Shown: positions 42,492 to 56,337 of the stretch, one piece after another
Layout: every line of letters starts with the position of its first letter
Numbering within the stretch: position 1 is the first letter of the stretch
From: Bdellovibrio sp. GT3
GTDB lineage: Bacteria; Bdellovibrionota; Bdellovibrionia; Bdellovibrionales; Bdellovibrionaceae
Length of the DNA: 64,000 nucleotides
Reading direction: 5' to 3'
NCBI RefSeq assembly: GCF_037996765.1
Contig: NZ_JBBNAD010000006.1
Span: 1-64,000, forward strand
The notes under the pieces: generated by a model
Told to the model about the DNA's origin: nothing
The model's input: only the letters and a program-made list of their open reading frames with translations
Database searches by the model: none
Position numbers and translations under genes: made by a program

Positions 42492-43763
42492 TTATTTCGT
42501 ATCTGCTAGATTGGTTTGGATGTAAGGTGCAAACCAAATATCGTAAATTTTCCCGGTTTTGGTTTTACCTTTGGCATCGGTGTACCAGAACTTGGAGCGT
42601 TCACGAATTTCCGCGTTCTTACCACGACTCTCGAAGTTCTTTTCATACTTCAACGAAATCTTAGTCAACTTCAGACTGGCTTTGGACATTTCGGACTTTT
42701 GCGAAACGCCGTCGCCGTTTTTGTCCTTCCAAAGAACCAGACGCTGGAAGTCCTTGTCTTTGGCATCAATCATTCCATCTTTGTTGGTGTCGAGCTTTCT
42801 GAGTGCTTCAAAACCATTGATGTCGATGCTGTTGTCACCAAAGAGTTCGTTCTTTTGATCGATGCGTCCGTTCTTATCACGATCCATCGCCAGGAAAAAC
42901 CCTGGATGATCAGCATTTGGCCAGTAGACTTTTCCACCTGGATTCAGAGGGAAATCACTGACGTTTTCAAACTCTGGCAACTTGTCATCAAAGAACACCA
43001 TCAATGGCGACCAGTAACCACCACAGAATCCGGTTTCACCCGGGAAGCTGATAAAGATCTCGGCAATGGATCTGTCTGGAGAAACGTTGAAACCACCAAT
43101 CGTGGCCGTCACGTCCCCGTCCTTACCCATGAAGTCACCACAGCCATACGTCGGCATTTGCGCTGACCAGCCATAATCACCAAATACGGGCCCGGTGTTA
43201 CAGTCCAAAACCTCTTGTTCAAACTTCATAGCACCCAGTGCCACGGTTGCTTTACTAACCGTGATATTACCTGAGTCATCCACAGAGACATCGGTTGGAA
43301 TTTTTGTTTTAAACTCAACGATATTACCGAAAATCGCGGCGGTTCCGCCCGCAGGGACCATTTTCACTTTTGAAGATTTGATATTGGCGATTTGACCATT
43401 TCCCACAGTCCCGGAACCCTCTTTGGTCACCACAACTGCCGGATACTCGGCGCCCAGATTATAGGTCTTGGTCCCAATCAGCAGGTTAATATCTGCTGTG
43501 ATCAAAGAACTTTTCGCCAGAGGATTTGTCACTGCACGCAGGTTCGTTGGAAAACACGAGTTAATCAACCGGATGGTCATCGTGTCTTTACCCGCACGTG
43601 TGACGGTTCCAGATGCAGGCGCCCCCACAACTGACTCCCCGGCACTGACCGAGTTGACAGCCATTGGAACGTCCTTACTGACGGCCAAAACGTTGTTTTG
43701 GTCTGCCATCGCAGTGCTCGTCAGCAATGCAATTGAAGCCCCCCAAAAAACTGCTGTTTTCAT
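42492..43763 (-). CDS. Secreted EF-hand-type calcium-binding protein, cassette copy 2
   Basis: 423 residues with a signal peptide cleaved near residue 20 (TAMA/DQ). A beta-rich N-terminal part (about 30-240) is followed by FFDDKLP and three calcium loops: DRDKNGRIDQKNE (294-306), DTNKDGMIDAKD (325-336) and DKNGDGVSQKSE (347-358). The layout ELFGD...NGFEALRKLD...VLW.DKNGDGVSQ is the one found near the ends of large RTX-type adhesins. Four Cys (70, 188, 208, 247) are conserved in the paralogue at 48478. It is the last gene of a four-gene pseudopilin cassette. By position it may correspond to PilY1, a calcium-binding pilus-tip protein; this is inference. Confidence 0.75.
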   Translation of the reverse strand: MKTAVFWGASIALLTSTAMADQNNVLAVSKDVPMAVNSVSAGESVVGAPASGTVTRAGKDTMTIRLINSCFPTNLRAVTNPLAKSSLITADINLLIGTKTYNLGAEYPAVVVTKEGSGTVGNGQIANIKSSKVKMVPAGGTAAIFGNIVEFKTKIPTDVSVDDSGNITVSKATVALGAMKFEQEVLDCNTGPVFGDYGWSAQMPTYGCGDFMGKDGDVTATIGGFNVSPDRSIAEIFISFPGETGFCGGYWSPLMVFFDDKLPEFENVSDFPLNPGGKVYWPNADHPGFFLAMDRDKNGRIDQKNELFGDNSIDINGFEALRKLDTNKDGMIDAKDKDFQRLVLWKDKNGDGVSQKSEMSKASLKLTKISLKYEKNFESRGKNAEIRERSKFWYTDAKGKTKTGKIYDIWFAPYIQTNLADTK

Positions 43764-43780: not shown

Positions 43781-44794
43781 TCAAATCTTGGTTTTCTTAA
43801 CCTTATGAATCTTAAAATAAATCATTCTTTTCATGACCGAGTCGCGGCGAAGAACCATTTTCTCGACCCCGTCCGAAAGCATGGTCAGCGTGACCCATTT
43901 GCCATTTCGATATTCAGCAGCATACAAGCTTAGCGGTTGCTTATCGTAATTAGCTGCATTTTTGTTTTTATCAATCTCTACATAGTACTTGATGATTTTC
44001 ACCACCCGCGCGCGAACAACCGTCTGACCACCACCCACTGAGGGAAGTGTTCTTAGGAAATTATCCAGGCTGGTGATCGCATTGCCATTATATGGCTGTG
44101 TCATCTTAAACATTTTCTCAACACCGCCGGAAATATTCTGCAGATTATCCCCTGCCTGTGCGGCGATGGAACCCAGATAGAAAGGACTGCGTGGTGGAGT
44201 TAAAACATCCACTTCGCCATTTTTCAAAGGGCGAATTCGGCTTGGCGTATCGAAGAACAAAATATTTCCATCCTTCCAAAACCCTGCACGACCACCGTTG
44301 GCTTCGTTGGAAATCCATTTACGACTTTTAGCACCGTTGAAAGTCAACGAAGCTGGCTTATTGGGATCTCCCGGATCCGCACCCACATCGTAGGCCCAAA
44401 CCGGGTCATAGTTCAACAAAGGCCCCGAAGCAAAGTCCTGAGTCACCACAAAGAACTCGGATCTTCCGGAGCTGAGGCTCAGCGTGAATTCGCGATCCGC
44501 TCTTTTGACCAAAACGTTTTCTGTGACATCGGGATAGAAATCATAAAAATTGTTTCCGTTATCATCGTTAACCACGATGTTGTTATAGGAAACCTCAAGA
44601 CCATTGAGATTCTTAAAGATAATACGCTCGGCCAGATTCTGGTCAATAGAGTCATCCAGCTGACGAGTCAGCTTCGTTTGCTCTTTGGCCATCTGTACTT
44701 GCACGGCGACAACAACAAGAATCACAATCGCGGATAAACCTATCCCGACCATGAGTTCAACTATTGTTAAGCCTTTCTGATTGCGCATCATCAT
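43781..44794 (-). CDS. PilW/GspJ-like prepilin, cassette copy 2
   Basis: 337 residues. The class III signal is NQKG/LTIVELMVGIGLSAIVILVVV, with Gly before the cut and Glu at +5, as recognised by prepilin peptidase. The large C-terminal domain (about 300 residues) is bulky for a minor pilin and suits a GspJ/PilW-type tip subunit. Its start overlaps the PilV-like stop by ATGA. The paralogue at 49766 is very similar over its full length. It should be inner-membrane anchored until assembly. Confidence 0.82.
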   Translation of the reverse strand: MMMRNQKGLTIVELMVGIGLSAIVILVVVAVQVQMAKEQTKLTRQLDDSIDQNLAERIIFKNLNGLEVSYNNIVVNDDNGNNFYDFYPDVTENVLVKRADREFTLSLSSGRSEFFVVTQDFASGPLLNYDPVWAYDVGADPGDPNKPASLTFNGAKSRKWISNEANGGRAGFWKDGNILFFDTPSRIRPLKNGEVDVLTPPRSPFYLGSIAAQAGDNLQNISGGVEKMFKMTQPYNGNAITSLDNFLRTLPSVGGGQTVVRARVVKIIKYYVEIDKNKNAANYDKQPLSLYAAEYRNGKWVTLTMLSDGVEKMVLRRDSVMKRMIYFKIHKVKKTKI

Positions 44795-45249
44795 TTTGCA
44801 CTCACCACGAATGTGTAATCCCGGAATTTCTCCGGTGCCCAGCTTTTATGGGTCATTCTTAAAGTCACAAGATAAAGTCCACGGTAAAGTTCATAGGGCT
44901 GAATGATATAGCCGAAGCTTCCCTCACAGGTATCGCAGTTCCCACGCTCGGCCACGCGCCCGATATCCCACAGCATGGGAAGATTATCGGGAGGCAGGAA
45001 TTCATCGATCTTGGTTTGATCGTAATTGAAATTCACCTGATAGTCCTGCACACCGGCTTTGATGTTTTCAGCAATATCTGAAACCTGGCGATCCGTGGAA
45101 CCCGCCATCAAACTTTGTTGCGAAGTCTTATACAAAGATGCCATGCCACCCGCAAAGGTCAGCCCAATGACTGAGATCAATCCCAAAGCCACCAGGGCTT
45201 CGATGATAGTTTGACCGTCCCTGTTTTTGAACAATGATTTTTTCATCAT
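44791..45249 (-). CDS. PilV/GspI-like prepilin, cassette copy 2
   Basis: 152 residues. The signal DG/QTIIEALVALGLISVIGLTF has Glu at +5 and the hydrophobic helix of type IV prepilins. A CDTC pair lies near residues 100-103 of the globular domain. By my count it differs from the paralogue at 50770 at about 24 of 152 positions (about 84% identity), with most changes near the N-terminus. It overlaps both neighbours by four bases, so the cassette is translationally coupled. A minor pilin of the GspI/PilV class is the likely role. Confidence 0.85.
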   Translation of the reverse strand: MMKKSLFKNRDGQTIIEALVALGLISVIGLTFAGGMASLYKTSQQSLMAGSTDRQVSDIAENIKAGVQDYQVNFNYDQTKIDEFLPPDNLPMLWDIGRVAERGNCDTCEGSFGYIIQPYELYRGLYLVTLRMTHKSWAPEKFRDYTFVVSAK

Positions 45250-48200
45250 AGTCCTTGCCCTTCTCTGGCTTGCTCTACTACGTAGTAGTGGTAAATACGA
45301 CGTTTACAAGTCGGCACAGTTTGCGTTGCCCCTACCGGGATACCGCAATCCGGATCCACCGCGGTCCACTTAAATGGATCCGCTTTTGCGCGCAGACTGA
45401 TTACGTTACAGTTCATACGATCTGCTGTTTCTTGAATCGAAGGCATTGGATGCCAAATTGGAGACGGCAGATTGTCGCATTTTGTTCTATTGTTCGGATC
45501 CGAAAGAGGATACAGGATACCGCGAGCACGAAGCTCTTGGGTTGCTTGTGGATAGTAGATACTGGTCCACGTGATCCCTGTACGAACCGCCTGTTCGTGG
45601 ATCTTCAATGATTTACCAATGATGAAAGTTCCCACGATGCGCAGTGGTTTTGTACGACCGCCCTCGATCACGAGGTTGTCACAAGTATAAAGACCCGTCA
45701 CAAATGAAGCACCGGCTTTGATGGTGCAATCCCCAATGATGGATCTTACCATGAACTTCTGATCATCCACCGACCAGGTTCTGTTCGCGGCCACTGGATC
45801 TGCTGTCGTTGCATTGTCCTCTCCGGCAAAGTTCCAGGACTTACGAGTCGAAGATGAGAAGCTTGAACCCCAGTTGGCAGCACCGAAGGACTGCGAGTTG
45901 ATCATATTATAGTACTCATCACACTTTGCAACCAAGTCAGCGGATTCATCATCAACTGTACCAGTACCTGCGTTCGTCGTCAGAGACAACGCCGTTGGAC
46001 GAGTCAGGGAGCCGTTGCTTGCAATTTGGAAATTCAAGTAACCAGACAAGTGATTTGGATCGGCATTGGAACGAATCGGAGTACTGTTATAGTAAGTCCC
46101 GTCGTAACCTCTGAAACGAATCGACAACGAGTTTATTCTTACACCGTCTTTATTAACCAGGTACTGTCCGTTTGTGATCGTGACCTGCACGTCAATACGG
46201 TCCTTATACTCTTTTCCGGACCAGCTATAAACCTTGTCCAGGTCAATCTTCACGACCGGTAAGTGATCCTTCAGCTCTTCATAGTCATCAAGTTGTGCCT
46301 GATACTTGGTTACATTCGCTTGCGCAGTATCCTTGGCCGAAGACGTCGCCGGCATTTGCACATTCTCAAGAGAAGCGATCTGTTGATTCAAATCACTGAT
46401 TTTTGTATTCAGTTTCGTAATTTTCATTTCTAACTTTTCAATTTCATCCGGATCCTGATATGTACCAGGAGGCACCGGAGTTGGAGAGACTGTCGGAGAC
46501 GGACTCACAGTTGGAGAGACTGTTGGAGATGGCGATGCTGTCGCCTCTGGGTCCGGAGTTTCCGTGGCTGTCGGAGAAGGAGAAACCGTCGCCGTCGGAG
46601 ACGGCGTTGGGGTAGCCACAGGCTCAACAGGTTTTGCCATTTCAGCTGCAAGATCCGCTTTTGCGACTTGCAGATCCGCTTCAGCAGTTGATTTTTGTGT
46701 TTTCAAACTACTTAGATTTGAACTTTGCTGATCACTTGTATCCTGGGCATTTTTCAACGCTGTTTTTGCATTATTCAAATTCGTTTTAATTGTGGCCAGA
46801 CGTGCCGGATTCAAGACTGGTGGCGTGATCTCCACGAAACCGTCTTTAACAAGATCGACCGCAAACTTACGTTCGTCTGAGCCAGAGCCATAGAGCATTT
46901 CCAACTTGGCAATGGCACCCGAGTATTTGTCTTTGTTATCAATTTCCCACTTACCGGTTGACCAATCTCCCGTCAAAGTAGGGTTTGTTGGCAATTGGTT
47001 TTTCTGAGCATAGAAAGTGTTGTAATTGGTAAGAACCGTACGATAGTTCGTGTAATAGCCTTCACCATTTTTGGTCGGATCCGTAGACTCCGTCTTTTTC
47101 GCAGTCACATCGGAAGCTTCCATGTATTCCAAGTTTGAACTTTTTTGATTCAACTCAGAACAGATTTTATTCCAATCATATTCAGTACCCGATGAGCCCG
47201 AGGCACGGCCCGACATGACGTCCAATCCCAAGTCGCGCATACCATCGTTTTCAATACCGCCCAGAAATCCACCAAACACGCGGGAGTCGGACCAGAAGCG
47301 ATCCGGTAGCGAGCCTTGTGTAACAGGAGCATAGGGACTGTTATCCGGTCTTAAAATCCAACCATTACCCATATAGACACGGTCCGCGAAAGTAACACCT
47401 GCATAGCTTGAGTTACCACCACTACCCGAATCATATGGCAAAGTGATATTGCCGTTCACGAAGACGGGACTTTTAAAGACCAACCCCGTGCTGTCACCTA
47501 GATCATTCTTACTGTTGAATTTGTGGAATACGACCTCACCTTTATCCGTTTGGGAAGCATTCCATTCTTTATCCATGCGCAAGTTGCCGGGAAGTACCAA
47601 GGCAAACGAACCCACTTCACGTGGATAAATTGCAAGTTGAGCGCGAACTTGCAGTGGTGCACGGCCTACTTGAACAACTTTATCTGTTTTATCTATCAAA
47701 GAAACCTGTGCTTGAACGTAAACTTCGCGACCTGCTTTTGGCAAATAACCCGCATTCGCTGGACGAGTCAGGAGTACTTTAATGGCTTTCACCGGCACGA
47801 CCGCGCCTGAAACTTCATCCACCACATTTTTCAAATTATTTACAACCGGGAATAGAGGATGGTTTGCTGACACCGGAAACACCAAGGATAATTCAATTTT
47901 ATCCAGGCGCAGTTTATCCAGATCTTTATCATGCGGACCAATATTCGTCCCGGATGCCGCCATCGCCTGCAAGGATTGCAATTGTTCATCAGACATCACC
48001 AGGCGTTCAACGTTACCGGCGTGATTCCAATCACAGCTTGTTGTATTTTGCATTAAGGTGTTGTTTTCAAAACAATACTTTTGACGAACACCGAAGACCA
48101 CGTAGTCCAGCGCACTGTTCACCGCGAACTTTAAGTTCACCACGTTTTTGGTTTTAACGACTTGTTTACGCTGACCGATGACGTAAGAGGATAAAAAATA

Positions 48201-48281
48201 AAAACTGATGCTCATCACGACCATGGCCGTGAGAACCTGCATTATCGCGTTACCTTTTTTATTTCCAATAGTCCTATACAT
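45246..48281 (-). CDS. Large PilX/GspK-like pseudopilin with coiled-coil arms and Thr/Ser-Pro tip, cassette copy 2
   Basis: 1011 residues from the ATG at 48281 (AGGAAAC upstream); the in-frame extension to 48326 is rejected. KKG/NAIMQVLTAMVVMSISFYFL is a prepilin-like signal lacking Glu+5, as in GspK and PilX. A beta-rich region (to ~490) is followed by a coiled-coil arm (~493-550), a proline-rich repeat of TVSPSPT type (~555-605), a second coiled-coil arm (~610-670), and a C-terminal domain with several Cys and a beta-helix-like stretch. The two arms could fold back as a hairpin with the Pro-rich part at its tip. A GspK-like first pseudopilin at the pilus tip is inferred. Confidence 0.75.
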   Translation of the reverse strand: MYRTIGNKKGNAIMQVLTAMVVMSISFYFLSSYVIGQRKQVVKTKNVVNLKFAVNSALDYVVFGVRQKYCFENNTLMQNTTSCDWNHAGNVERLVMSDEQLQSLQAMAASGTNIGPHDKDLDKLRLDKIELSLVFPVSANHPLFPVVNNLKNVVDEVSGAVVPVKAIKVLLTRPANAGYLPKAGREVYVQAQVSLIDKTDKVVQVGRAPLQVRAQLAIYPREVGSFALVLPGNLRMDKEWNASQTDKGEVVFHKFNSKNDLGDSTGLVFKSPVFVNGNITLPYDSGSGGNSSYAGVTFADRVYMGNGWILRPDNSPYAPVTQGSLPDRFWSDSRVFGGFLGGIENDGMRDLGLDVMSGRASGSSGTEYDWNKICSELNQKSSNLEYMEASDVTAKKTESTDPTKNGEGYYTNYRTVLTNYNTFYAQKNQLPTNPTLTGDWSTGKWEIDNKDKYSGAIAKLEMLYGSGSDERKFAVDLVKDGFVEITPPVLNPARLATIKTNLNNAKTALKNAQDTSDQQSSNLSSLKTQKSTAEADLQVAKADLAAEMAKPVEPVATPTPSPTATVSPSPTATETPDPEATASPSPTVSPTVSPSPTVSPTPVPPGTYQDPDEIEKLEMKITKLNTKISDLNQQIASLENVQMPATSSAKDTAQANVTKYQAQLDDYEELKDHLPVVKIDLDKVYSWSGKEYKDRIDVQVTITNGQYLVNKDGVRINSLSIRFRGYDGTYYNSTPIRSNADPNHLSGYLNFQIASNGSLTRPTALSLTTNAGTGTVDDESADLVAKCDEYYNMINSQSFGAANWGSSFSSSTRKSWNFAGEDNATTADPVAANRTWSVDDQKFMVRSIIGDCTIKAGASFVTGLYTCDNLVIEGGRTKPLRIVGTFIIGKSLKIHEQAVRTGITWTSIYYPQATQELRARGILYPLSDPNNRTKCDNLPSPIWHPMPSIQETADRMNCNVISLRAKADPFKWTAVDPDCGIPVGATQTVPTCKRRIYHYYVVEQAREGQGL
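46465..46617 (-). repeat. DNA repeat coding the Ser/Thr-Pro linker, copy 2
   Basis: Imperfect tandem repeats of about 12-18 bases on the plus strand built from GTTGGAGA and GTCGGAGA units. They encode the SPTVSP-type linker of the large pseudopilin. Such repeats can change length by slippage. Confidence 0.7.
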
Positions 48282-48287
48282 ACCGAC

Positions 48288-48320
48288 GTTTCCTATATGA
48301 GTCCTTATCGGACAGGAAAC
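48288..48320 (-). promoter_or_regulatory. Hairpin able to hide the ribosome site of cassette copy 2
   Basis: Minus-strand GTTTCCT (48314-48320) pairs perfectly with AGGAAAC (48288-48294), which holds the presumed ribosome site seven bases before the ATG. A second short stem GTCC/GGAC lies inside. It would form only if transcription starts upstream of 48320. Confidence 0.4.
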
Positions 48321-48332
48321 GAACAAGATTTA
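48305..48332 (-). promoter_or_regulatory. FliA-like promoter candidate upstream of cassette copy 2
   Basis: Minus-strand TAAATCTT (48325-48332) and CCGATAA (48305-48311) resemble the sigma-28 consensus TAAAGTTT and GCCGATAA, with a spacing one base longer than in Escherichia coli. The same arrangement lies before copy 1. The start site would fall about 20-25 bases before the ATG. Confidence 0.5.
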
Positions 48333-48477
48333 TTGAAAAATCGCAATAATCCCAGAATTCTTAAGTAATTAGCGTGTGATACTACTTAAAGTTCGATTTC
48401 GGACCGCCACTTTGTATCATTCCGAACCATAATGGCGTGTTACCAAAGAATTCTTGTGGATTCATGCAAACTTATTA

Positions 48478-49743
48478 CTATTTACCTCCGGCAAGATTTG
48501 TTTGAATGTACGGAGCAAACCAAATGTCATAAACATTGCCTTTTCGGGTCTTCCCTTTCGCATCGGTGTACCAGAATTTGGATCGTTCACGAATCTCTGC
48601 GTTCTTTCCGCGGTTTTCAAAAAACTGCGTGTAGTTGAGTGAAATCTTATTCAGTTTGAGACTCGCTTTTTTCATCTCGCTGGACTGAGAAACCCCATCG
48701 CCGTTTTTATCATTCCATAAAACCAGGCGTTTAAAGTCCTGATCCCTGGAATCAATGACGCCGTCTTTGTTGGTGTCGAGTTTTTTCAACGCTTCAAAAC
48801 CATTTACGTCAGAGTTATTATCTCCGAACAGTTCATCTTTTTTATCAATAATCCCATTCTTGTCGCGATCCAGTGCCAGAAAAAATCCAGGGCTGTTCGC
48901 TCTGGGCCAAAAGACTTTCCCGCCAGGATTCAGAGGAAAGTCAGAGACATTGTCAAAGATCGGAAGCTTATCATCAAAGAACACCATCAAAGGTGACCAG
49001 AAGCCACCGCAAAATCCCGTCTCTCCAGGATAACTGATAAAGATTTCAACTATAGAGCGGTCAGGCGAAACATTCAAACCACCAATTGTCGCACTCACCA
49101 AGCCATCTTGCCCCATGAATTCACCACAGCCATAGGTAGGCATTTTTGCCGACCACCCGTAGTCACCAAACACCGGGCCTGTGTTGCAATCAATGATTTC
49201 CTGTTCAAAAGACATTGTGCCAAGCCCGACTGTTTCTTTGCTAATTGAAATGCCGCCAGAGTTATCAACCGTCACATTCGTTGGAATTTTAGTTTTAAAT
49301 TCCAGAATATTTCCGTAAATGGCAGCCGTGCCTCCCGCAGGAATCATTTTTACTTTCGACGAACTGATGTTTCCGACCTGGCCACTACCCACCGTGCCGG
49401 ATCCTTCGCGAGTCACAATGACAGAGGGAAATTCGGCACCAATATTGTAGATTTTGGTTCCCACCAGAATATTGATGTCTGCCGTTACCAGAGAGCTCTT
49501 AGCAAGAGGATTCGTCACTGCCCGTAAGTTGGTTGGAAAGCAGGAGTTTATCAGACGAACCGTCATCGTATCTTTACCAGATCGTGTGACCGTCCCCGAT
49601 GCCGGCGCACTGGAAATAGTTTCACCTGCATTTACTGAATTCACTGACATCGGCACTTCGGTGCTGTTCGAAAGTACGTTTTGATCAGCATACACGCTAA
49701 ATGTCGGCAGCAAGACCGCTAACGATAAAACAGCTGCTTTCAT
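48478..49743 (-). CDS. Secreted EF-hand-type calcium-binding protein, cassette copy 1
   Basis: 421 residues with a signal peptide ending SVYA/DQ near residue 19. It is closely related over its whole length to the protein at 42492. The three calcium loops (DRDKNGIIDKKDE, DTNKDGVIDSRD, DKNGDGVSQSSE) and the four conserved Cys are retained, as is the C-terminal RERSKFWYTDAKGKTR region ending near FAPYIQTNLA. It is the last gene of the upstream cassette. No obvious terminator separates it from copy 2, about 150 bases further on. Confidence 0.75.
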   Translation of the reverse strand: MKAAVLSLAVLLPTFSVYADQNVLSNSTEVPMSVNSVNAGETISSAPASGTVTRSGKDTMTVRLINSCFPTNLRAVTNPLAKSSLVTADINILVGTKIYNIGAEFPSVIVTREGSGTVGSGQVGNISSSKVKMIPAGGTAAIYGNILEFKTKIPTNVTVDNSGGISISKETVGLGTMSFEQEIIDCNTGPVFGDYGWSAKMPTYGCGEFMGQDGLVSATIGGLNVSPDRSIVEIFISYPGETGFCGGFWSPLMVFFDDKLPIFDNVSDFPLNPGGKVFWPRANSPGFFLALDRDKNGIIDKKDELFGDNNSDVNGFEALKKLDTNKDGVIDSRDQDFKRLVLWNDKNGDGVSQSSEMKKASLKLNKISLNYTQFFENRGKNAEIRERSKFWYTDAKGKTRKGNVYDIWFAPYIQTNLAGGK

Positions 49744-49765
49744 TGTATCCCCCTCATAGCGACCA

Positions 49766-50773
49766 CTATTTCTTTTCTGCTTTATAAATTTTAAAATAAA
49801 TCATTCGCTTCATAACCGAATCACGGCGCAGAATCATTCGGTCCACACCATCAGAAAGCAACGTCTTGCCTTCCCATTTACCATTTGAGTACTCGGCGGA
49901 ATATAAATTCAAAGGTTGAACTTTATAGTCAGCAGCATTTTTCTTGGTGTCCGGCTCCACATAGTACTTCACGAGTTTCACCACGCGGGCGCGCACAATT
50001 GTCTGACCACCACCCACAGCCGGGAGTGCTCTTAGGAATACATCCAGGTTGGCAATTTCTGCGCCATTTGATGGCTGAGTCATTTTAAAAATGCCTTCGG
50101 CATCACCTGTGATATTCTGCAATTTATCCCCTGATTGCGGGTTGATCGAGCCCAGATAATAGGGACTGCGTGGTGGAATCAATCTATCGACCACACCATT
50201 AACAACCGGACGAATTCGATTTGGTGTATCAAAAAACAAGATATTCCCTTCGCGCCAAAACCCAGGTCGTCCCCCGCTGTCCTCATTGGAAATCCATTGA
50301 CGACTTTTACCGGGACTGAAAGTCAACGATGCTGGTTTATTGGGATCCCCCGGATCCGGGCCGACGTCGTAGGCCCAAACCGGATCGAAATTCAGCATTG
50401 CTCCTGAAGCAAAATCCTGAGTCAACGCATAGAATACTTTGTTGGCTTTACTTAGATTCAAAGTGAAATCACGATCTGCTCGTTTCTTTAAAACATTCGT
50501 GGTCAGATCAGGATAGAAATCATAAAAGTTATTTCCATAGTCATCTTCAACTTCAATGTTATTATATGAAACATCGATACCATTCAGATTCTTAAAGATA
50601 ATTCTTTCCGCCAGGTTCTGGTCAATGGAATCATCCAGCTGTCTGGTTAATTCAGTTTGCTCTTTCGCCATTTGAACTTGAACCGCGACCACGGTTAAAA
50701 CAACAAATGCCGACAGGCCCAGTCCCACGACAAGTTCAACAAGAGTGATACCTTTTTGATTATGAATCATCAT
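49766..50773 (-). CDS. PilW/GspJ-like prepilin, cassette copy 1
   Basis: 335 residues from the ATG at 50773, which overlaps the PilV-like stop by ATGA; a longer frame to 50821 is not needed. The signal NQKG/ITLVELVVGLGLSAFVVLTVV has Gly before the cut and Glu at +5. The globular part matches its paralogue at 43781 closely, for example in DSIDQNLAERIIFKNLNG and in the PGDPNKPASLTF segment. Length and context point to a GspJ/PilW tip subunit. Confidence 0.82.
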   Translation of the reverse strand: MMIHNQKGITLVELVVGLGLSAFVVLTVVAVQVQMAKEQTELTRQLDDSIDQNLAERIIFKNLNGIDVSYNNIEVEDDYGNNFYDFYPDLTTNVLKKRADRDFTLNLSKANKVFYALTQDFASGAMLNFDPVWAYDVGPDPGDPNKPASLTFSPGKSRQWISNEDSGGRPGFWREGNILFFDTPNRIRPVVNGVVDRLIPPRSPYYLGSINPQSGDKLQNITGDAEGIFKMTQPSNGAEIANLDVFLRALPAVGGGQTIVRARVVKLVKYYVEPDTKKNAADYKVQPLNLYSAEYSNGKWEGKTLLSDGVDRMILRRDSVMKRMIYFKIYKAEKK

Positions 50774-51228
50774 TTTGCACTCACCACGAAAGTGTAATCC
50801 CGAAACTTCTCCGGCGCCCAACTACTGTGAGTCATTCTTAAGGTGACTAAATAAAGACCGCGATAGATTTCATAGGGTTGAATAATATATCCGTAACTAC
50901 CGCGACACTTATCACAGTTTCCCCTCTCGGCGACCATCCCCACATCCCAAAGCATGGGTAAATTTTCCGGTGGAAGAAAATCATCAATCTTAGTTTGGTC
51001 GTAATTGAAATTAACCTGATAGTCCTGAACACCGGCTTTGATATTTTCCGCTATATCGGAAACCTGACGATCTGTCGCAGAGGCCATTAAACTTGCTTTC
51101 GAGGTATTTCGCAACGAAACCATTCCACCCGCGAAAGTAAGACCAATCACGGAGATCAACCCTAAAGCCACAAGTGCTTCGACTATAGTTTGCCCTTGAA
51201 TGCCGCCAAATTTATTCTTCTTAATCAT
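50770..51228 (-). CDS. PilV/GspI-like prepilin, cassette copy 1
   Basis: 152 residues, the same length as the paralogue at 44791 and about 84% identical by my count. The signal QG/QTIVEALVALGLISVIGLTF is intact with Glu at +5. The Cys pair (CDKC) is kept. The most variable part is the first twelve residues, which are removed by prepilin peptidase, and a stretch just after the membrane helix. It overlaps both neighbours by four bases. Confidence 0.85.
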   Translation of the reverse strand: MIKKNKFGGIQGQTIVEALVALGLISVIGLTFAGGMVSLRNTSKASLMASATDRQVSDIAENIKAGVQDYQVNFNYDQTKIDDFLPPENLPMLWDVGMVAERGNCDKCRGSYGYIIQPYEIYRGLYLVTLRMTHSSWAPEKFRDYTFVVSAK

Positions 51229-54200
51229 AGTCCTTGTCCTTCACGGGCTTGCTCGATCACGAAATAGTGGTAAAGGCGTCGTTTACAATTCGGTACCGTT
51301 TGCGTGGCACCGACGGGAATACCACAATCCGGATCAACGGCGGTCCACTGGAATGGATTGGCCCGGGCTCGCAGACTGATCACGTTGCACGACATACGAT
51401 CGGCCGTCTCTTGAATGGATGGCATCGGATGCCAAATCGGAGAAGGCAGCTGATCGCATTTTTTTAGATTTCCGGGCTCCGACAACGGATACAAGACACC
51501 ACGGTCGCGCAGTTCCTGTGTGGCTTGTGGATAGTAGATGCTACTCCAAGTGATCCCTGTACGAATTGCCTGCTCATCAATCTTCAGGGATTTTGCAATA
51601 ATAAAAGTCCCCACGATGCGCAGTGGTTTTATACGACCACCCATGATCGTCAGGTTTTCACACGTATAAAATCCTGAAACAAAACTTGAACCCGGTTTAA
51701 TCACGCAGTTCTTAATGATCGATTTGACATAGAAGTCCTCATCATCAGAATCCCAGATTCTGTCGGCCGCTGCGTATTCAACCTTGGCAGTCGTAGTGAC
51801 ATCACCGGCAAAATTCCAGGAATTTCTGGTTGAAGCCGAAAAGCTTGCACCCCAGTTGGCGGCGCCAAAGGATTGAGAATTGATCATGTTGTAATACTCT
51901 TCGCACTTGGCGGCCAGATCCGCACTTTCCTCGTCATCTGTCCCCGTTCCAACACCTGCCGTAGTGGTAAGTACTGTGGGCCGTGTTATTTCACCCGAAG
52001 AACTGATGCCGAAATTCAAATAACCCTGCAAGTGATCCGCAGGAGTCGATGCGCGAATAGGCCTACTGTTAAAGTAAGTACCATCGTAGGCTTTGAACTT
52101 AACCGACAGCACATTGATTCTATTGCCATGGGAGTCTATCAGATTCTGACCATTCTTAATGGTGACCTGCAGATCAACCCGATCTTTATAGGTTTTTCCA
52201 GTCCAACTTTTTGCATTATCCATGTCGACTTTAATTTCCGGCTGATTCTCTTTAATCTCTTTATAGCGATCCACTGCATTCTGGGCACTCTGCACATCAG
52301 ACTCAGCCTCGCTCTTGGCTTTGGCACTGGCCTTGCCTTCTTCGTCTTCTTTTTTGGCAATATCAGAAATCAATTTATTCAAATCGTTTTTCAAAAGTTG
52401 TATTTTGTCTTCCATCTCCTTAATTTTTACCGGATCCTGATAAGGTGAATCGGCTGCAGGAGTCGGTGACACTGTTGGAGAGGGTGATACAGTCGGAGAT
52501 GGTGAAGCTTCTGGTGTGCCCGTCGGTGATGGTGAGGCTGTCGGATCTGGTGAAACCGTGGGAGAGACTGTTGGTGAAGGTGACGGCGACGGCGACGGAG
52601 TTGCCACAACCACTGGCTGAACGGGTTTTTCCTTCTCAAGCTTTAACGCATCTTCAGCATTTTTTAGCTCTATTTCTTTGGCCGCTTTTTTGTTTTTTAA
52701 ATCTGTCAGAGCTGCGCTGGGCTGTCCTGCAGAATCCACAATCTTTTTATAATCCTGCTGGGCTTTGCTTAAAATGGAAGCGAGATTTGATTCAAGGGCA
52801 GGATTCAGAGTGGGCAACTTCACTGTTATAAAAGCATCGCGAACCAAATCCACAGTGACTTTTTTATTTTCACCATCTTGCCCGTAAGTGACTTCAATAG
52901 AAACAATGGCACCCGTTTCTTTGCCTTTATTATCAACAGCCACACTTCCTGAACTCCAATCACCGTTCGTCACGTAACCAGGCAAAGGATTTTTCTGGGC
53001 ATAAAAAGTGTTATAGTTAGTCAGAGTCAGGCGATAGTTTGTGTAATAGCCGTCTTCATCAGGTGGATCTTTATCTTCATTCTTTTTTGTCGCCTTTAAG
53101 TCAGAGGCTTCCATGAATTCGAACTTGGTACTTTTTTGATTTAAATCCGCGCAAAGTTTATTTAAATCAAACTCCTCACCATTGGAACCATTCGAACGAC
53201 CCGACAACACATCCAGTCCCAAGTCACGCATGCCATCGTTCTCAATTCCCTTTAAGAATCCTCCGAATACGCGGGAGTCCGACCAATAACGATCCGCCAC
53301 CCCACCCTGTGTGACGGGTGCATATTGAGAATCATCGGGTCTAAGAATCCAGCCATTACCCATATACACCCGGTCTGCGAAAGTCACACCCGCGTAAGCA
53401 GATTTCCCCTGAGCCCCACCATCATTTGGCAGGTTAATATTACCATTAACAAAAACGGGACTGGTGAAAACCAACCCCTGACTTTCACCCAAAGCACCTT
53501 TGCTGTTAAATTTATGAAAGTACACCGTACCTTTATCATCTGAAGGTGGCGTCTCGTTCCACTCTTTATCCATGCGCAAATTACCTGGTAGCACCAAGGC
53601 AAAGGAACCTATCTCACGAGGATAAACCGCCAGCTGAGAACGCACGGTAAGTGGAGCCCGCCCGACTTGAATCACATTCCCTGCATTATCCAAAAGAGAC
53701 ACTTGCGCTTGAATATAGACTTCTCGTCCAGCTTTAGGGAGATAGCCCGCATTCGAGGGTCGAGTCAGCAGCACGCTCATGGATGACACCGGCACCACCG
53801 CACCCGAGATTTCATCAACGACGTTTTTCAGGGAGTTGACCACCGGAAACAAAGGATGCGCTGAGGACACCGGGAACTTCAGCGACAATTCAATTTTATC
53901 CAAACGCAGTTTCTCGAGATCCGGGTCATGAGGACCAATATTGGTACCCGCGATCGCCATCGCCTGCAACGACTGCAACTGTTCATCCGACATCACCAGA
54001 CGCTCGACATTCCCGGCATGTTTCCAGTCACAACTGGTTGTGTTTTGCAAAAGCGTGATATTTTCAAAGCAATATTTTTGGCGGATACCAAAGACCACGT
54101 AATCCAGGGCACTGTTGACAGCGAACTTCAGGTTCACCGTATTCTTGGTCTTAACCACTTGCTTGCGCTGTCCAATGACGTAGGTTGAAAGGAAATAGAA

Positions 54201-54278
54201 GCTGATGCTCATCACCACCATCGCGGCGAGAACCAGCAAAATCGCATTGCCTTTATTATTTGGATTTTTATTGAACAT
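51225..54278 (-). CDS. Large PilX/GspK-like pseudopilin with coiled-coil arms and Ser-Pro tip, cassette copy 1
   Basis: 1017 residues. The signal NNKG/NAILLVLAAMVVMSISFYFL lacks Glu at +5, like GspK. The order of parts is as in copy 2: beta-rich region, coiled-coil arm (~493-553), Ser/Thr-Pro repeat (~558-611), second arm (~616-676), and the Cys-containing C-terminal domain ending AREGQGL. The N- and C-terminal regions are much more alike between copies than the arms and linker, where sequence drifts but pattern and length persist. The ATG at 54278 has AGGGG about nine bases upstream. Confidence 0.75.
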   Translation of the reverse strand: MFNKNPNNKGNAILLVLAAMVVMSISFYFLSTYVIGQRKQVVKTKNTVNLKFAVNSALDYVVFGIRQKYCFENITLLQNTTSCDWKHAGNVERLVMSDEQLQSLQAMAIAGTNIGPHDPDLEKLRLDKIELSLKFPVSSAHPLFPVVNSLKNVVDEISGAVVPVSSMSVLLTRPSNAGYLPKAGREVYIQAQVSLLDNAGNVIQVGRAPLTVRSQLAVYPREIGSFALVLPGNLRMDKEWNETPPSDDKGTVYFHKFNSKGALGESQGLVFTSPVFVNGNINLPNDGGAQGKSAYAGVTFADRVYMGNGWILRPDDSQYAPVTQGGVADRYWSDSRVFGGFLKGIENDGMRDLGLDVLSGRSNGSNGEEFDLNKLCADLNQKSTKFEFMEASDLKATKKNEDKDPPDEDGYYTNYRLTLTNYNTFYAQKNPLPGYVTNGDWSSGSVAVDNKGKETGAIVSIEVTYGQDGENKKVTVDLVRDAFITVKLPTLNPALESNLASILSKAQQDYKKIVDSAGQPSAALTDLKNKKAAKEIELKNAEDALKLEKEKPVQPVVVATPSPSPSPSPTVSPTVSPDPTASPSPTGTPEASPSPTVSPSPTVSPTPAADSPYQDPVKIKEMEDKIQLLKNDLNKLISDIAKKEDEEGKASAKAKSEAESDVQSAQNAVDRYKEIKENQPEIKVDMDNAKSWTGKTYKDRVDLQVTIKNGQNLIDSHGNRINVLSVKFKAYDGTYFNSRPIRASTPADHLQGYLNFGISSSGEITRPTVLTTTAGVGTGTDDEESADLAAKCEEYYNMINSQSFGAANWGASFSASTRNSWNFAGDVTTTAKVEYAAADRIWDSDDEDFYVKSIIKNCVIKPGSSFVSGFYTCENLTIMGGRIKPLRIVGTFIIAKSLKIDEQAIRTGITWSSIYYPQATQELRDRGVLYPLSEPGNLKKCDQLPSPIWHPMPSIQETADRMSCNVISLRARANPFQWTAVDPDCGIPVGATQTVPNCKRRLYHYFVIEQAREGQGL
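52445..52605 (-). repeat. DNA repeat coding the Ser/Thr-Pro linker, copy 1
   Basis: Imperfect short tandem repeats (GGTGAAGG, GTTGGAGA and GGCGACGGCGAC types on the plus strand) coding SPSPTVSP-like repeats. Repeat number and order differ from copy 2, which suggests independent expansion. Confidence 0.7.
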
Positions 54279-54435: not shown

Positions 54436-55362
54436 TTAGGCGTGCTGTGGATCCAGACAGGAAACACCCTGTATTTCAGTCTCGACGGTCGCTTCGATGA
54501 TGCCAAAGGCTTTCATTCTTTTTTTGATTTCGTTTTTCACCGTCTGCATTTCAAGCAAAGTGGCTTCTTCCTTTAACACCACATGGCCGGTGAATACGTG
54601 ATTTTCACCATCCAAAGACCACAAGTGAGCATGATGCACATCCACCACGTTTTCGATTTTCTTGATCTCTTCAACGACCGCTTCAACCGAAGATCCTGAA
54701 GGTGATGCCATCAAAAATACTTTTGTCGCCTCACGCAGATTTTTAAAGACGTTAAACAAGATCCACACGGACAAGGCAATCGCCAATCCCGCATCCACTT
54801 GTGGCAGATCCCAGAACTTCATCACCAGGGCGCCAATCAACACCAGCACCCACCCCATCACGTCTTCAATCATGTGCCACATCAACATGCGCTCGTTCAA
54901 TGAAGTCCCTTTGGAAACTCGCAACGCTGCGATGCCGTTGATGGTCACGCCCAACAATGCGAGCAATAACATTCCATTGGCATGAGGCTGCTGCGGATTG
55001 ATCAAACGAGGAACGGCCTCCACCAAAATGAAAACAGAGCCCACGATCAAAATCATCCCGGTGATCACCGCCCCCAAAACTGAGAAACGTCGGTAGCCGT
55101 AGGAAAAATTCTGATCACTGGATTTGTGGGAAAGTTTCTCCATGAAGATCGCAATAATCATAGCCAGTGCATCACCGAAATCATGAAGAGCATCACTCAT
55201 GATTGCGACGGAGTTTGTCAGATAGCCGCCCACCAGTTCCACCAGGGCAAAGCCCAGGTTCAGAACAAACGCAAACCGCATGCGTCCTATGACTCCACCG
55301 TGGCTGTGATGATGGTGATGGCCGTGACTATGACTGTGATGATGATGGTGTCCGTTACTCAT
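54436..55362 (-). CDS. Cation diffusion facilitator (CzcD-like) with His-rich N-terminus
   Basis: 308 residues from the ATG at 55362; an ATG nine bases upstream is possible. The first 25 residues are mostly His, Ser and Gly and may gather metal. Six membrane helices follow, with the transport-site motif SVAIMSDALHDFGDALA near residue 55 (HDxxD) and a second acidic pair in the fifth helix. The C-terminal metallochaperone-like domain holds HHAHLWSLDGENHVFTGHVV. It exports zinc or similar divalent metals from the cytoplasm. The cargo is not determined by sequence. Confidence 0.92.
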   Translation of the reverse strand: MSNGHHHHHSHSHGHHHHHSHGGVIGRMRFAFVLNLGFALVELVGGYLTNSVAIMSDALHDFGDALAMIIAIFMEKLSHKSSDQNFSYGYRRFSVLGAVITGMILIVGSVFILVEAVPRLINPQQPHANGMLLLALLGVTINGIAALRVSKGTSLNERMLMWHMIEDVMGWVLVLIGALVMKFWDLPQVDAGLAIALSVWILFNVFKNLREATKVFLMASPSGSSVEAVVEEIKKIENVVDVHHAHLWSLDGENHVFTGHVVLKEEATLLEMQTVKNEIKKRMKAFGIIEATVETEIQGVSCLDPQHA

Positions 55363-55419
55363 GCTGTCCATTACAGCCGTTTATTGACCGAGTTTCAAGC
55401 TCATGATAGCCCTTTGCAC

Positions 55420-56337
55420 ATGATGACACGCGCTCAATACAAGAAATTTGCATTTGGACTTTTGATTTACACAATCCTGGTCATTTTATGGGGCGCGTGG
55501 GTGCGAATTTCCCACTCAGGAGATGGTTGCGGCGACACTTGGCCACTGTGCAACGGCCAACTGATTCCTGAAGCGCAACGCGGTAAAACATGGGTGGAGT
55601 ATGGACATCGCCTGATGTCAGGAATCTATGGCTTTGTCGTGATTTATTTTTACTGGGCGGCTCGCAAAATCTATCCTGTGGGTCACTTCGCCCGCAAAGC
55701 CGCACTGGCGACTTTGGTGTTCATGATCACTGAAGCCCTGCTTGGCGCAAAACTTGTGCTGTTTGGCCTGGTCACCACCAACGACACTCCTTATCGCGCC
55801 TTCATCATGGCTCTGCATCAGATCAATTCGTTCATTCTGACCGGCTCCGTGGCTTTGGCATTTGCTGCCGCAACCCTCAGCGACACCACGCCGACCCCGA
55901 TGCCAGGCTATCGTAAATTTAAATATCTCCCGTTGATCATTGTGATCCTGGGCATCACCGGAGCCTGGGCTTCACTCTCAAACTCTTTGTTTCCAACTGA
56001 TAATTTGTTTGAAGGCTTTATGGCTGATCTCTCCACTGATTCTCACTTCCTGGTGCGCCTGCGCGGCCTGCATCCTTTGCTGGCCGTTCTTGGTGCCGGC
56101 AGTCTGGCACTGTTTTTCTGGCTGAAGTCCCAATCCGCCTCGCACCCTTTGGTGCAAAAAAAATCCGCTCAGATGAGCGGTATCCTGATCCTGGGAATTT
56201 TATTTGGAATTGGGACGCTGGTATTTCATGCCCCGACGTGGATGAAAGTCACTCACCTGTGTCTGGCCCATGTCATCTGGGTGACCTTGCTACAATGGGT
56301 GTTTTTTATGCGCAACGCTGACAAGACCCCGGCTTAA
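55420..56337 (+). CDS. ctaA: Haem A synthase CtaA/COX15-like
   Basis: 305 residues from the ATG at 55420 (a second ATG follows at once). The frame is open for 98 codons upstream, but that part is antisense to the cation-efflux gene and is rejected. Eight hydrophobic helices are seen. GAWVRISHSGDGCGDTWPLCNGQLIPE near the start, VEYGHRLMSG near 65 with a haem-ligand His, ALHQINSF and the later LRGLHPLL and HLCLAHV histidines are the family marks. It converts haem O to haem A for cytochrome oxidase. No oxidase genes are in the window. Confidence 0.85.
   Translation: MMTRAQYKKFAFGLLIYTILVILWGAWVRISHSGDGCGDTWPLCNGQLIPEAQRGKTWVEYGHRLMSGIYGFVVIYFYWAARKIYPVGHFARKAALATLVFMITEALLGAKLVLFGLVTTNDTPYRAFIMALHQINSFILTGSVALAFAAATLSDTTPTPMPGYRKFKYLPLIIVILGITGAWASLSNSLFPTDNLFEGFMADLSTDSHFLVRLRGLHPLLAVLGAGSLALFFWLKSQSASHPLVQKKSAQMSGILILGILFGIGTLVFHAPTWMKVTHLCLAHVIWVTLLQWVFFMRNADKTPA

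Follow-up and report, generated by a model that had tools for sequence, protein, structure and literature searches.

A predicted coiled-coil rod with a variable loop in the giant minor pilins of two tandem Bdellovibrio cassettes

Prey attachment by Bdellovibrio is still largely unexplained. Two operons of B. bacteriovorus, Bd2209-Bd2212 and Bd2723-Bd2726, are expressed in the attack phase, and predation is lost upon transposon insertion in Bd2210, Bd2211, Bd2212 or Bd2723 (PMC12034629). A Bd2210 mutant is defective in the attachment, killing and rounding of prey (PMC6561027). AlphaFold-Multimer predicts that the Bd2209-Bd2212 proteins form a four-protein complex with Bd2212 as its hub (interface predicted template modeling score, ipTM, 0.852), and the same study, which names these sets novel complexes of mostly hypothetical proteins, mentions no pilin, pseudopilin, tip complex, coiled coil or variable linker in its main text (PMC12034629). 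Two pilin systems described elsewhere are also relevant. ComZ of Thermus thermophilus has a pilin part that is nearest to GspK, has been argued to be a tip protein and binds DNA (PMC6561018). Myxococcus xanthus uses several paralogous three-pilin tip sets, the Kil Tip KilLMN, in predation; their large subunit has variable domains, and the extra domain of KilN4 includes two long helices (PMC12075869). Here we analyze a 64,000-nucleotide stretch of Bdellovibrio sp. GT3 (contig NZ_JBBNAD010000006.1, positions 1 to 64,000; hereafter the window) in which two four-gene cassettes, arranged in tandem and both on the minus strand, each encode a giant pilin-like protein, a 152-amino-acid PilV/GspI-like pilin, a PilW/GspJ-like pilin and a protein of 421-423 amino acids. 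Both giant open reading frames (ORFs) were judged real. The role of the related B. bacteriovorus operon in predation is already published; what is new is the architecture of its giant protein and the recognition of the operon as a pilin tip set.

Each giant protein carries a Pro/Ser/Thr stretch between two arms. An earlier reading of the sequence alone had described this layout in both large proteins, and our measurements agree: between fixed boundaries the arms are 62 and 70 residues long in both copies, and the Ser/Thr-Pro linkers have 61 residues in copy 2 and 57 in copy 1. The sequence-only reading had also held that arms and linker vary while the flanks are conserved. This is true of the sequence, as the two copies are 73-76% identical in the body and 32-34% in the arms, but not of arm length, which stays fixed, with zero gaps in either arm. 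Clade-averaged arm hydrophobicity peaks at 100-102 degrees per residue (approximately 3.5-3.6 residues per turn). When compared with shuffled sequences, the averaged arms of the window clade show heptad-like periodicity (p = 0.009 and 0.0002), as do the averaged arms of other clades (p = 0.007 and <0.0002).

We modeled full-length copy 2 with AlphaFold (mean predicted local distance difference test, pLDDT, 73; predicted template modeling score, pTM, 0.48), as well as a fragment of copy 1 comprising the immunoglobulin (Ig)-like domain and the hairpin (45993-47141; mean pLDDT 84.5, pTM 0.70). In copy 2, arm 1 consists of helices at residues 493-517 and 522-549 (52632-52802, on the minus strand like all cassette features given here), residues 550-615 form a disordered Ser/Thr-Pro linker at the hairpin tip (52434-52631, mean pLDDT ~37), and arm 2 is one helix, residues 616-677 (52248-52433). 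The copy 1 model has a 57-residue helix for arm 1 (residues 112-168 of the fragment; 46638-46808) and a 62-residue helix for arm 2 (residues 231-292; 46266-46451), with pLDDT up to 98, around a disordered Ser/Thr-Pro linker (46452-46637, pLDDT mostly <50). In both copies, the arms are modeled as two long, confident helices of similar length packed antiparallel, not as separate disordered linkers. At 1.5 Å per residue, the predicted rod is ~9 nm long. Both arms of both models superpose on solved antiparallel hairpins, namely CT670/YscO, EmrA, colicin E3/E9, moesin and the dynein stalk, with a root-mean-square deviation of 1.4 to ~4 Å over 113-133 residues. The match to CT670/YscO has a Z-score of 11.1 (2.7 Å over 128 residues), and those to moesin, colicin E9 and the dynein stalk reach 1.4 Å over 113, 2.4 Å over 131 and 1.9 Å over 129 residues, respectively.

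Of the 24 genomes of the genus, 23 were hit in a single-sequence search for the giant-protein family, counting G005, where the match was of low complexity only; a profile search placed the family in 26 of 144 genomes of the phylum. G005, G015 and all seven sampled genomes of the same family outside the genus were without it, and this pattern may hint that the protein is connected with prey invasion. We parsed 23 Bd2212-type genes for arm and linker lengths and built a tree from the body alone. Arm lengths fall into two classes, 54-55 and 60-63 residues (arms 1 and 2) in 16 genes and 62-63 and 69-70 in the 7 genes of the window clade, and the lengths of the two arms correlate at 0.97. On the body tree, the +7 residues in both arms, equal to one heptad, map to a single branch. 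The linkers were also compared as the sequence-only reading had proposed, and they are far from invariant, ranging from 11 to 96 residues. They have been gained or lost independently at least three times: the linker has 11 residues in G010 versus 82 in G003 and G006, at ~90% body identity between G010 and these two, 13 in G019 versus 53 in G021, and 13 in G022 versus 48 in G023. Linker composition shifts as well, from Ser-Pro to Thr-Ala, Thr-Gly, Ser-rich and Glu-rich. The genome also encodes similar low-complexity Ser/Thr-Pro stretches in proteins that are not related to the giants (G000:C3:32708-32929, C5:1073763-1073978 and C6:393740-393859), and this type of linker seems to be a general spacer there.

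Relatives also exist in which the loop, or the entire insert, is missing. In distant paralogs (L039, L042-L044 and L046), the arms are joined by a turn of 1-4 residues. In paralog 3 of this genome, its G011 counterpart and L048, both arms are missing together, and 24-25 residues join the same strands. A third cassette of this genome lies ~14 kb beyond the window (G000:C6:77854-83000; positions 13854-19000 of L053); its large protein has 835 amino acids and is without the hairpin, and an EF-hand-type gene follows. Because the insert-free cassettes L053 and L063 keep both small pilins and the EF-hand gene, the hairpin is an accessory element that is unneeded for keeping the set. We conclude that it is a removable insert, carried by the Ig-like domain of a minor pilin; a weak fold match likens the body of this pilin to ComZ. 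Taken together, the long confident helices, the superposition on solved hairpins, the matched +7/+7 residues and the joint presence or absence of the arms uphold the antiparallel coiled-coil rod that the sequence-only reading had proposed.

At comparable body identity (60-70%), arms average 31% identity in the window clade and 41% elsewhere. In the body tree, copies 1 and 2 group as sisters, apart from a duplication in G014 and G016; this suggests two independent tandem duplications, or homogenization.

By protein sizes and synteny, we identify the window cassettes as tandem copies of the Bd2209-Bd2212 operon. The locus of a relative, G001, encodes proteins of 995, 153, 328 and 418 residues (the last from a TTG start), compared with 995, 153, 328 and 414 for Bd2212, Bd2211, Bd2210 and Bd2209 (PMC12034629), and it shares with the window neighboring genes for cation efflux, COX15-like, LON-like and Na/Pi transporter proteins. 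A second paralog set of 384, 325 and 162 amino acids matches Bd2723-Bd2725 in size. The Bd2726 type is missing from the window clade: nothing in this genome or its closest relatives matches it better than the Bd2212-type copies do, at 33-39%, compared with 66% for the true ortholog in G001. Copy 2 of the large GspK/PilX-like minor pilin, the Bd2212 ortholog by synteny and size match (PMC12034629), is a 1017-amino-acid ORF at 51225-54278. It is followed by the Bd2211 ortholog, a PilV/GspI-like minor pilin (50770-51228; N_methyl match and synteny), the Bd2210 ortholog, a PilW/GspJ-like minor pilin (49766-50773; N_methyl match, with ATG 50773 preferred over TTG 50821), and the Bd2209 ortholog, a 421-amino-acid protein whose N-terminus is signal-like and which weakly matches the EF-hand (48478-49743; domain search and synteny). 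In the copy 1 cassette, the large minor pilin is a 1011-amino-acid ORF (45246-48281); homology and a short prepilin leader led us to place its start at ATG 48281 rather than the listed TTG 48326. The PilV/GspI-like pilin (44791-45249) and a 423-amino-acid protein that likewise has a signal-like N-terminus and weakly matches the EF-hand (42492-43763) were assigned by domain search and synteny, and the PilW/GspJ-like pilin (43781-44794) by an N_methyl match (E 1.3e-5). Elsewhere in the window, a 30-bp repeat in a zinc-type transporter gene (54436-55371) codes for a His-rich N-terminus. The GTG start listed for a COX15-like gene (55126-56337) overlaps the transporter gene; a later ATG is the probable real start.

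The rest of the giant protein can be described from the copy 2 model. Its N-terminal pilin helix spans residues 8-67 (54078-54257). Residues 391-761 look Ig-like with the hairpin inserted, on weak Ig-like matches; the first part of this domain covers residues ~391-490 (52809-53108) and the second, from model and fold matches, residues ~680-761 (51996-52241). Residues 220-979 match ComZ (Z-score 8.8, 3.4 Å over 179 residues), a weak match from a model with a full-length pTM of 0.48, with further matches to beta-solenoid ice-binding proteins. The two halves of this beta-solenoid-like body lie at residues ~220-350 (53229-53621, boundaries approximate) and ~837-979 (51342-51770). Foldseek gave no match below E 0.001 for the full-length model; the ComZ and hairpin matches came from VIA re-alignment only. 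Because the Ig-like matches contain the inserted hairpin and the surrounding body matches ComZ and the solenoids, we propose a nested architecture in which a pilin would carry a solenoid, the solenoid an Ig-like domain, that domain the coiled-coil rod, and the rod the loop.

Both giants have a class III prepilin leader with Gly before the cleavage site and no Glu5 (KG/NAILLVL in copy 2 and KG/NAIMQVL in copy 1, with the slash marking cleavage). A missing Glu5 is known for GspK and PilX. Searches of Pfam, NCBIfam and PDB sequences with the giants returned only low-complexity matches or weak generic coiled-coil matches in the arms, and none of 18 relatives matched the T2SSK (GspK) or PilX Pfam model. 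The small I/V-type and J/W-type pilins both match N_methyl, with no Tad family reported for them, and gene order is conserved in loci with complete flanks. We considered whether the cassettes might encode the pseudopilins of the type II secretion system (T2SS) itself and rejected this idea: the genome has a complete T2SS operon elsewhere with its own G-H-I-J-K set, and the cassettes are therefore additional tip sets, which probably serve type IV pili. Several secretion ATPases are present in the genome. PilY1 (PF05567 beta-propeller) was found in 0 of 144 phylum genomes, in a search run without a positive control. Another divergent minor-pilin cluster lies at L077 5137-9815 (G000:C5, ~662-667 kb), with pilin-like genes of 255 and 341 amino acids and an opposite-facing Cys-rich protein of 967 amino acids; its N_methyl leader has Glu5, making it a second kind of giant pilin.

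We lean, with modest confidence, toward the interpretation that each cassette encodes a type IV filament tip complex whose hub presents a coiled-coil rod and loop at prey contact. The initiating tip complex of the filament would be built around a very large GspK/PilX-like hub, with a PilV/GspI-like and a PilW/GspJ-like pilin and a secreted EF-hand protein as its partners. From a beta-turn of the Ig-like domain, inside the beta-solenoid-like hub body, the ~9 nm antiparallel hairpin would grow and end in its low-complexity loop, and the filament would display the rod at its end when it meets prey. The loop would thereby be kept off the pilin body, and both it and the rod surface would change freely. 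Sequences and models show which genes make up the set, how the arms are arranged, that arm length is locked, that the linker varies and that related cassettes can do without the insert; position at a pilus tip, outward projection of the rod, which the sequence-only reading had project from a pseudopilin body, and direct contact with or binding of prey are what we infer from them. A bolder version, which we hold tentatively and with some doubt, has the cassettes as interchangeable prey-contact tips for a type IV filament: a length-measured coiled-coil stalk might present a hypervariable, possibly glycosylated loop, and tandem duplication followed by fast divergence of the arms might equip one predator with several tip types that differ in prey preference.

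Several points weigh against this interpretation. For the rod, the periodicity of arm 1 taken singly does not reach significance (copy 2, p = 0.07; copy 1, p = 0.24). Hairpin Z-scores of 11-13 are common for long helices, and the Z-scores of 10-12 speak to shape and leave kinship unproven. The heptad gained by both arms counts as a single evolutionary event. With 18 and 15 rows, the alignments behind the AlphaFold models were shallow, and a full-length pTM of 0.48 leaves the angle between rod and body unfixed. Placing the giant protein at the tip or cell surface likewise extrapolates from sequence and model, and linkers of only 11-13 residues in some predator genomes indicate that a long loop is not required. 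The weak periodicity of single arm 1 sequences would even agree with arms that are separate disordered or helical linkers with a chance resemblance to heptads, but high pLDDT, two-arm superposition, matched heptad insertion and joint arm loss make this extremely improbable. Pairing between molecules, of copy 1 with copy 2 or in homodimers, without fold-back within the chain, is very unlikely too. The paralogs do lie side by side, and amphipathic arms of such length have more than one way to pair, but the same arms occur in single-copy genomes, the models fold back, and the 1-4 residue turns of relatives hardly allow anything but fold-back; mainly on account of these turns, we rejected pairing of copies 1 and 2.

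Two rivals are stronger: a docking rod and a neutral loop. It is a serious possibility, though one to which we give less than an even chance, that the long linker serves no purpose by itself. Hairpin tips tolerate insertions, and repeats may expand and shrink neutrally; the rod may matter where the variable tip does not, which makes this explanation compatible with the rod of our preferred interpretation and a rival to its tip. The repeated gains and losses of the linker, its unconserved composition and the Ser/Thr-Pro stretches in unrelated proteins of the same genome all favor it. However, most Bd2212-type genes keep 48-96 hydrophilic low-complexity residues despite differing repeats, which suggests a retained need for length or disorder. 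The sequence-only reading took the pattern to fit a presented, fast-changing tip; selection may drive such change, and neutral drift of a permissive hairpin loop would fit too. Alternatively, the hairpin could be a docking device that reaches another envelope component, such as a secretin, the EF-hand protein or the filament shaft, with the loop as a spacer. The hairpins of EmrA and MacA, which reach out in this way, turn up in the structural matches; the arms keep to narrow length limits and the loop does not, as expected of a measured reach; and the hub binds all three partners in AlphaFold-Multimer models (PMC12034629). Docking is nonetheless on balance unlikely: L053 and L063 keep the same partners without the insert, and arms that are ~33% identical between tandem copies, against 73-76% for the bodies, are loose for a conserved docking surface. 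If our preferred interpretation of a prey-contact tip holds, predation-essential "hypothetical" proteins gain a concrete picture as one more GspK-I-J-like tip set, whose rod and loop can be removed. The rod becomes a concrete, testable candidate for the part that touches prey, and the natural rod-less and loop-less relatives mark the segment that may separate assembly from prey contact.

How does this locus compare with known systems? Its four-gene cassettes are orthologous to the B. bacteriovorus operon Bd2209-Bd2212, and the window differs in having two tandem Bd2212-type copies. ComZ (6QVI, PMC6561018) is a large minor pilin whose pilin fold holds an inserted beta-solenoid, and the weak model match suggests that the giants may be built alike. 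ComZ is about half their size, the accessible part of its report describes no coiled-coil hairpin or disordered tip, and we found no sequence similarity between ComZ and the giants. The GspI-GspJ-GspK tip of the T2SS likewise combines one large subunit without Glu5 and two small pilins, whereas the cassettes have no T2SSK Pfam match, add an EF-hand protein and use another gene order. KilLMN resembles them in its three-pilin tip sets and the variable domains of its large subunit, but its proteins are TadE/F/G homologs, while the window cassettes belong to the type IVa/T2SS N_methyl family. A Bdellovibrio tip was also predicted there by structure search, its genes not named in the main text (PMC12075869), and it possibly overlaps this operon. 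We did not find a pilin with nested insertions ending in a coiled-coil stalk in the literature consulted. PilB of Streptococcus sanguinis (PMC8179133) offers a parallel as a modular pilin that displays a grafted functional module at the tip; the module there is a vWA domain, and here it would be a nested Ig-like domain with a coiled-coil rod and a variable loop.

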